Assembly (NCBI GenBank): GCA_020441385.1
Contig: JAGRMG010000146.1
Span: 1 to 56,127 of the forward strand
Reading direction: 5' to 3'
DNA length: 56,127 bases
Source: Paracoccaceae bacterium
GTDB lineage: Bacteria; Pseudomonadota; Alphaproteobacteria; Rhodobacterales; Rhodobacteraceae
The position numbers and the translations under genes are program-made. The notes under the pieces are model-generated. The model saw only the letters and a program-made list of their open reading frames with translations, made no database searches and was not told where the DNA came from. The first letter of the stretch is position 1; each line of letters starts with the position of its first letter. This document shows positions 17,808-19,537 of this stretch, piece by piece.

Positions 17808-17851
17808 TTTCCTATCCTTTCAGTTTGAAGGCGCCGCCCGTGCGGCTTTGC

Positions 17852-17884
17852 ATTCAAATATAGGAATATGTCTGGGGCTGGCAA
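17852..17884 (-). promoter_or_regulatory. DUF2892 promoter with SqrR/BigR-type operator
   Basis: On the minus strand TTGCCA (17879-17884) and TATATT (17857-17862) are spaced 16 bp. The inverted repeat ATTC-AAATATAG-GAAT (17852-17867) covers the -10. ATTC-N8-GAAT is, to my knowledge, the site reported for the persulfide-sensing ArsR-family repressor SqrR of Rhodobacter. Binding here would block transcription until sulfide or polysulfide is sensed. Confidence 0.65.
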
Positions 17885-17911
17885 GTCCGACGGGGTTCGG
17901 GTGACGCAATG

Positions 17912-19537
17912 TCACAGGCTGCGGGCGATTTCGCGAAGCTGGAACTTCTGGATCTTGCCGGTCGATGTCTTGGGCAGTTCCTGAAACAGCACGCGTTTTG
18001 GGGTCTTGAACCCGGCGAGGTGCTGGCGGGCGAAGGCGATCAGCCCGGCCTCGTCCACCGCAGCGCCCTCTTTCAGTTCGACGAAGGCGCAGGGTACCTC
18101 GCCCCATTTCATGTCAGGTTTGGCCACCACCGCGCAAAGGCTGACATCGGCGTGTTTCATCAGCACGGCCTCGACCTCGACCGACGAGATGTTCTCGCCC
18201 CCCGAAATGATGATGTCCTTGGCCCGGTCGGCGATCTTGATATAGCCGTCGGGGGTCTGGAAGGCGATGTCGCCGGTGTGGAAATAGCCGCCGGCGAAAT
18301 CCCTGGCGGTGGCCTCGGGATTCCTGAAATAGCCCTTCATCACGACGTTGCCGCGAAACATGATCTCGCCCAGCGTCGCGCCGTCGCGCGCCACCGGCGT
18401 CATGGTCTCGTCCATCACCGTGATTTCCTCCATCATCGGCATGCGGATGCCGGTGCGCGCCTTGATCTCGAAGCGTTCGTCGTCGGGCAGGCCGTCCCAT
18501 TCGGGCCGCCACAGACATTCGGTGCCCGGCCCGTAGGTTTCGGTCAGCCCATAGACCTGTGTGATGTTGAAGCCCAGCGGCTCGACCCTGGCGAGCGTTG
18601 CGGCGGGCGGCGGCGCGCCGGCGGTAAACACCTCGACCACATGGTCGAAGGCGCGGCGTTCGTCGGGGCGGGCGTTCACGATCATGTTCAGCACGATCGG
18701 CGCGCCGGCGAAATGGGTTGCGCCCTCGTCGGCGATGGCGTCATAGATCGCCCCCGCCGTGATGTCGCGGCAGCAGATCAACGTGCCCCCCAGAAGCGGC
18801 ATCATCCAGGTGTGGCACCAGCCGTTGCAGTGAAACAGCGGCACGATGGTCAGGTATTTCGGCCGCTGCGTCATGTTCCAGCTGACCACCTGCGAGAAGG
18901 TGCTGAGATACGCGCCGCGATGGTGATAGACCACGCCCTTGGGCCGCCCCGTGGTGCCCGAGGTATAGTTCAGCGCGAGGCTTTCCCATTCGTCCTCGGG
19001 CATGATCCACGCAAAGCCCGAATCGGCCTGCGCCAGCATGTCCTCGTATTGCGGATATCGCCCGCTTGCGGGGTGGCCGGCATGGGGGTCGGGCACCTCG
19101 ATGATGGTGGGGCCGTCGCCGTCCATCAGTTCTGTCGCGGCTTCGGCCAGCGCCATGAACTGGCTGTCCACCAGCGCCACCTTCGCCCGGCCATGGCCGA
19201 AGATGTAGGCCACGGTATCGGCTTCGAGCCTCGTGTTGATCGTGTTCAGCACGGCGCCGCAGGCGGGTACGCCGAAATGCGCCTCGGCCTGGGCGGGGAT
19301 GTTGGGCAGGATGGTGGCCACCACATCGCCCGGGGCCACCCCCATGCCGGCCAGGGCCGCGGCCAGCCGGGTGCAGCGGTCGTGATATTCGCCATAGGTC
19401 TTGCGGTGCGCGCCATAGACGACGGCGGGATGGTCGGGAAAGATGTCGGCGGCGCGCCGCAGATGCGACAGCGGCGTCAGGGCGACGAAATTCGCCGCGT
19501 TGCGTTCCAGCCCGGTTTCGTCCGCCATCCAGCCCAT
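17912..19537 (-). CDS. Acyl-CoA synthetase (AMP-forming)
   Basis: A 541-aa ANL-superfamily ligase that activates a carboxylic acid via an acyl-adenylate. The P-loop YTSGTTGRPKGVVYHHRG, the adenine-binding YGLTETYGPGTE, the hinge YIKIADRAKDIIISGGENIS and the catalytic Lys in KTSTGKIQKFQLRE are all present. VPLFHCNGWCHTWMMPL is typical of short/medium-chain or branched acyl-CoA ligases. The start has GGGAGGGG eight bases upstream. It is oriented away from the DMT permease gene. Chain-length preference cannot be fixed. Confidence 0.88.
   Translation of the reverse strand: MGWMADETGLERNAANFVALTPLSHLRRAADIFPDHPAVVYGAHRKTYGEYHDRCTRLAAALAGMGVAPGDVVATILPNIPAQAEAHFGVPACGAVLNTINTRLEADTVAYIFGHGRAKVALVDSQFMALAEAATELMDGDGPTIIEVPDPHAGHPASGRYPQYEDMLAQADSGFAWIMPEDEWESLALNYTSGTTGRPKGVVYHHRGAYLSTFSQVVSWNMTQRPKYLTIVPLFHCNGWCHTWMMPLLGGTLICCRDITAGAIYDAIADEGATHFAGAPIVLNMIVNARPDERRAFDHVVEVFTAGAPPPAATLARVEPLGFNITQVYGLTETYGPGTECLWRPEWDGLPDDERFEIKARTGIRMPMMEEITVMDETMTPVARDGATLGEIMFRGNVVMKGYFRNPEATARDFAGGYFHTGDIAFQTPDGYIKIADRAKDIIISGGENISSVEVEAVLMKHADVSLCAVVAKPDMKWGEVPCAFVELKEGAAVDEAGLIAFARQHLAGFKTPKRVLFQELPKTSTGKIQKFQLREIARSL

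Follow-up and report, generated by a model that had tools for sequence, protein, structure and literature searches.

A predicted SqrR/SoxR-type operator over the promoter of a stand-alone YgaP-like membrane protein gene

The gene, its promoter and the overlapping site

The stretch of DNA analysed here (the window, 56,127 nt) carries a gene for a 63-aa protein that matches the Pfam family PF11127 (YgaP-like_TM, formerly DUF2892) at 47.6 bits (cut-off 25.3). Its fold is given by a solved relative, the transmembrane domain of E. coli YgaP (2mpn), which its profile matches with an E value of 1.8e-7, and the product is predicted to span the inner membrane with two helices and to correspond to the membrane half of YgaP. 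It is the only PF11127 gene found in the 3.71 Mb genome (273 contigs, 94.8% complete). A Cys49-Pro50 pair is present in every row of a 12-sequence alignment, in which Cys49 is invariant, and the GxCP motif recurs in 78 of the 80 relatives described below, with one of the other two having a QFCP variant that keeps the Cys-Pro. In the profile alignment with the YgaP membrane domain, Cys49 falls opposite a serine of 2mpn; judging from the residue count, this serine would replace the native Cys159 that was mutated in the structural work (PMC4730233).

No sulfur-oxidation genes were found among the neighbours examined, which encode an AMP-binding acyl-CoA synthetase, a protein without assignment, upp, a PHO4 transporter, an EamA transporter, a PEP-mutase-like protein, a sulfotransferase-family protein and a Hint protein. 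A sequence-only reading of this DNA had described the gene as standing alone, with no rhodanese, persulfide dioxygenase or sulfide:quinone reductase gene beside it, and that description holds. The acyl-CoA synthetase gene upstream (17912-19537) is syntenic in Jhaorihella (L099), Thalassovita (L103) and Rhodalgimonas (L111), with the operator lying between the two genes each time.

The gene is preceded by a sigma-70-like promoter, TTGCCA-16-TATATT, which makes 10 of 12 consensus matches where the consensus scan expected 0.1 such promoters. The sequence ATTCAAATATAGGAAT, an exact ATTC-N8-GAAT inverted repeat, lies 44 bp upstream of the ATG and covers the whole of the -10 hexamer (Table 1). The promoter scan and the Pfam hit thus agree with the earlier reading, which had placed the repeat over the -10 of a well-spaced promoter in front of a DUF2892 gene and had named ATTC-N8-GAAT as the binding site of SqrR; this motif is stated in print as the deduced SqrR site (PMC9774250). 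The flanks of the repeat lengthen it to an extended palindrome that has only five perfect matches in the whole genome.

Table 1. Coordinates of the gene, its promoter elements and the predicted operator in the window, with two sites found elsewhere
Feature	Position	Strand	Basis
YgaP-like transmembrane (PF11127) gene, 63 aa	17616..17807	-	Pfam, alignment, 2mpn profile match
Shine-Dalgarno-like AAAGGA	17815..17820	-	7 nt before ATG; read from sequence
Predicted SqrR/SoxR operator ATTCAAATATAGGAAT (gene-strand, minus, reading ATTCCTATATTTGAAT)	17852..17867		Exact match; site kept upstream of stand-alone orthologues
Extended palindrome RYATTC-N8-GAATRY	17850..17869		Flanks of predicted operator lengthen repeat
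-10 hexamer TATATT	17857..17862	-	Promoter scan; fully within predicted operator
-35 hexamer TTGCCA	17879..17884	-	Promoter consensus scan
Site before 5-aminolevulinate synthase-like gene, this genome (G000)	C177:1686-1705 (L181)		
Site before 5-aminolevulinate synthase-like gene, relative G031	C2:168939 (L228:1501)		

The motif occurs once in the window, where 0.46 copies were expected, and at least one copy appeared in 38 of 100 shuffles of the window, which is not significant on the window alone. Shuffling the 104-bp intergenic gap (17808-17911) produced the motif by chance with p = 0.0026, and the density of the motif in the genome predicts 0.0006 sites in a gap of this length. Because so many window shuffles contain the motif, and given this gap value, the sequence by itself is only suggestive, and the case for an operator rests on the cross-genome tests.

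The site upstream of orthologues and of other sulfur genes

Among the first relatives compared, G003, G005, G010, G016, G024 and G031 carry the exact site 41-87 bp upstream of the start codon. G022 and G048, where the gene lies directly behind an sqr of the same type, have no exact site there. A scan of the collection extended the comparison to 80 named relatives from the Rhodobacteraceae, Rhizobiales, Caulobacterales, Gammaproteobacteria and other groups. A relative was classed as linked if it lay within 6 kb of sqr, an sqrR-type gene or a rhodanese gene, and exact copies of ATTC-N8-GAAT were counted within 200 bp upstream. The 50 linked relatives often lie directly behind sqr, and one of them has an exact site of its own, against 15 of the 30 stand-alone relatives, some of which are on short contigs (Fisher p = 3e-7, for relatives that are not phylogenetically independent). 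Shuffled upstream regions of the 30 stand-alone genes contained a mean of 0.18 sites and never more than two, and just 7 of 3986 other 200-bp windows from these loci contained the motif. The other half of the stand-alone relatives have no exact copy; some of these have a contig end close by or a degenerate site. This is the pattern that a dispersed regulon gene would show, with no switch of its own inside an operon and its own switch outside. The earlier statement that DUF2892 genes recur with BigR/SqrR genes also stands, as most of the 80 relatives adjoin sqr or an sqrR-type gene. Relatives also have a larger PF11127 subtype (profile 1-65), which was set apart as a different subfamily because only three of its loci had the exact motif.

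The spacers and flanks of the sites vary among relatives, as does the part of the promoter that is covered. The -10 is covered in the window and in Jhaorihella, Rhodalgimonas and Thalassovita. In Tabrizicola oligotrophica (L121), Thiosulfatihalobacter (L126), Shimia (L145) and Gemmobacter aestuarii (L149) it is instead the TTGAAT half of the site that forms the -35, with TAGATG or TATATC placed exactly 17 bp downstream. Two further loci (L116 and L155) combine TTGAAT at this 17-bp spacing with weaker hexamers, as read from the sequence. The layouts differ and the overlap with the core promoter is constant, as expected of a repressor that acts by blocking. A chance palindrome, with the DUF2892 gene constitutive or otherwise regulated, would be in keeping with the AT-richness of promoters and with the window shuffles. 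It cannot explain 15 sites among the 30 stand-alone relatives at varied promoter positions and with varied spacers, however, and the gap shuffle also speaks against it; on these two grounds we rule chance out as a scarcely credible origin of the site.

The genome contains 23 exact copies of ATTC-N8-GAAT, most of them inside coding sequence. With eight fixed bases only, this scatter counts against the operator reading. The earlier reading had named random scatter away from sulfide genes as a point that would refute it; the distribution is not of that kind, as 4 of the 23 sites precede the DUF2892 gene, a rhodanese gene, sqr and the sox cluster. The first of the three sulfur-related targets besides the window gene is an sqr on contig C265, with the motif 53 bp upstream, whose product has Acidithiobacillus ferrooxidans SQR as its best solved relative (E 7e-147). 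The second is soxX (TIGR04485) on C34, in a cluster that also encodes SoxY, thioredoxin-like proteins and a SoxR-type repressor, and the third is a rhodanese gene on C33 with the motif 83 bp upstream. A reversed-motif control of the genome search was set aside as proof because the reversed motif contains stop-like words that genes avoid.

Of 13 rhodanese orthologues with at least 41% identity, 10 keep the exact site and the remaining three have it with one mismatch; no exact site was found at more distant rhodaneses. The footprint at sqr is weaker, with an exact site in 2 of 10 orthologues, including that of the genome studied here, and one mismatch in five more. The extended motif occurs 4-13 times per genome in eight relatives, and 25 of 37 occurrences are intergenic, mostly less than 100 bp from a start codon, in what is a hand-picked sample processed with a crude gene finder. 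The gene types that recur behind it are thioredoxin 2 (trxC) and a membrane-like protein without a Pfam match (three genomes each), as well as an exported protein of the metallo-beta-lactamase fold and a membrane-fusion adaptor (two genomes each); a TauE-type permease, a DUF302 protein and an SQR-like flavoprotein are also found there. Sulfide, or the loss of sqrR, raises R. capsulatus trxC more than 20-fold, and the primer published for the start of this gene includes ATATTCGCGTTGCGGAATAT (PMC10044876), a sequence that fits the extended motif.

Candidate repressors and proposed control

Genes for two SqrR/SoxR-type ArsR proteins lie on C39 (product up to 126 aa) and C34 (111 aa), the latter within the sox cluster. 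The best solved relative of both is R. capsulatus SqrR (6o8k-6o8o, 13ct), with E values of 5e-33 for the C39 protein and 2e-35 for the C34 protein, and both retain the two sensor cysteines, in MILCHL and in LFC near the C-terminus. The SqrR/BigR homologue with two conserved cysteines that the sequence-only reading called for is thus present in duplicate. Against the NCBIfam BigR equivalog they score 107 and 93 bits, below the 155-bit cut-off, and are therefore relatives nearer to SqrR rather than BigR itself. Upstream of the C39 sqrR gene there is only a half-site (AATTGAATGT), and autoregulation of that gene is not claimed. A possible operator between the gene on the SoxR side and soxV was likewise dismissed, as only a degenerate repeat (ATTCACATATTCAGAT) is found there.

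We consider it highly likely, from the sequence comparisons above, that the site is an operator of persulfide-responsive ArsR repressors of the SqrR/BigR/SoxR group and that the DUF2892 gene is a dispersed member of a sulfane-sulfur regulon. The same motif stands on the sulfur-oxidation genes, and therefore the stand-alone gene very probably turns on with them. Without sulfide, a reduced repressor dimer on ATTC-N8-GAAT would cover the -10 and block RNA polymerase. Oxidation of sulfide or thiosulfate would raise cellular polysulfide, and sulfur atoms would come to link the two cysteines of the repressor. The repressor in this form would then leave, allowing expression of the DUF2892 gene along with the sox cluster, sqr and rhodanese genes, which lie elsewhere in the genome and bear the same site. 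The binding and release steps at this site are proposed by analogy with studied relatives.

Either of the two repressors could act here. A realistic, if minority, reading assigns the operator to the SoxR of the sox cluster, in control of thiosulfate oxidation, rather than to an SqrR-type sensor, and would make the DUF2892 gene a member of the Sox regulon. The location of the SoxR-type protein in a cluster whose soxX has the same motif fits this, as do two relatives (G016 and G024) that have the gene with its exact site yet a single ArsR of the SqrR/SoxR kind. However, the motif also precedes sqr and the rhodanese gene, both of which have counterparts under SqrR control in R. capsulatus (sqr and rhodanese rcc01557; PMC9995734), and a second, SqrR-type protein is present on C39. 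In Hyphomicrobium, SoxR binds the same DNA as its relative sHdrR (PMC12423496), so that the SqrR-type and SoxR-type proteins may share the site. Sequence cannot tell whether the SqrR-type protein, the SoxR-type protein or both use the site, and SoxR is as possible as SqrR. The earlier proposal of an orphan sulfide-regulon gene under SqrR is thus supported as regards membership, while SqrR is not the sole candidate for its control.

Control by the SqrR/BigR/SoxR group has several precedents, and the YgaP-TM gene is an addition to the known SqrR/SoxR network rather than a new type of system. The R. capsulatus SqrR regulon shares the operator, the two-cysteine regulator and the sqr, rhodanese and (in relatives) trxC targets; it differs in that here a stand-alone YgaP-TM gene has an operator of its own and a SoxR-type repressor is present as well. 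In the papers searched, which did not include the original RNA-seq tables for R. capsulatus, no DUF2892 gene is named as an SqrR/BigR or sulfide target. In E. coli, the ygaVP promoter has a similar sequence on which YgaV, an SqrR/BigR homologue, leaves a footprint (PMC9774250), and there a repressor of the same group sits over the promoter of a gene whose product contains the matching membrane domain. In E. coli, however, that domain is fused to a rhodanese and its gene is linked to that of the repressor, whereas here the membrane part, the rhodanese and the two repressors are encoded on four contigs. BigR of Xylella and Agrobacterium resembles the proposed repressor in that it acts around the -10 of the promoter under its control (PMC5823870), while its operon unites bigR, blh (DUF442-ETHE1) and a sulfite exporter, none of which adjoins the DUF2892 gene. 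SoxR of Hyphomicrobium and Pseudaminobacter is a sulfane-sulfur-sensing ArsR repressor of sox genes with a close homologue in the present sox cluster; the available text of those reports does not spell out the operator sequence, and no DUF2892 target was found in it.

YgaP consists of a rhodanese joined to a membrane domain, and thiocyanate export has been proposed for it. The N-terminal rhodanese fusion of full YgaP is not found here, as the 63 aa comprise the TM domain only and the rhodanese is separate. As a guess, the membrane protein probably handles sulfane sulfur at the membrane, and it possibly works beside the soluble rhodanese from the co-regulated gene on C33. A more specific version, which we think doubtful, is that of a split YgaP, in which the membrane and rhodanese halves are encoded apart under the same persulfide-controlled operator and cooperate via Cys49 to pass on or export sulfane sulfur; Cys49 would then correspond, by the numbering given above, to the membrane cysteine of YgaP. 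The co-regulated genes form a short list in which to seek the partner of the membrane protein. More broadly, regulation now joins gene neighbourhood in tying a widespread membrane family, DUF2892/YgaP-TM, to sulfane-sulfur control. Genes outside sulfur operons tend to have an operator of their own, by which the regulon would be held together as its genes scatter.

Other occurrences of the motif

The extended motif GCATTC-N8-GAATGC lies before a 5-aminolevulinate synthase-like gene (Pfam Aminotran_1_2) in two genera (Table 1). It may point to a connection between sulfide sensing and tetrapyrrole synthesis, or it may be the site of another regulator. Sites such as these, which precede genes without an obvious sulfur role, would suit the idea that the site at the DUF2892 gene serves a different regulator whose inverted repeat is similar. 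We consider this very unlikely, since the motif accompanies sulfur genes and the genome encodes members of the regulator family that reads it in other bacteria (SqrR, YgaV). An operator of the SqrR/BigR/SoxR group thus remains the preferred interpretation.

The genome motif scan also returned exact sites before ctaD and petA, which are not counted here as operators. A perfect palindrome, ATATTC-N8-GAATAT (C136:44226-44245), extends across both the start codon of trxA and its ribosome-binding site; it is left unproven because of this position and because TrxA1/A2 of R. capsulatus are not SqrR-controlled (PMC10044876). An identical extended motif inside a helicase-like coding sequence is shared by two genera (G000 C157:9285 and G010 C1:979053, L230). 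This is probably coding conservation, and warns that conservation of the motif alone is no proof.

In three relatives (L275:2045-2088, L277:1976 and L285:2009), the extended operator stands shortly before the gene for a membrane-like protein of about 404 aa, with two tandem sites in L275, the copy for which the absence of a Pfam match was established. In two others (L222:1501 and L232:1501), it lies 23-38 bp before the gene for the exported metallo-beta-lactamase-fold protein, a candidate member of the regulon.
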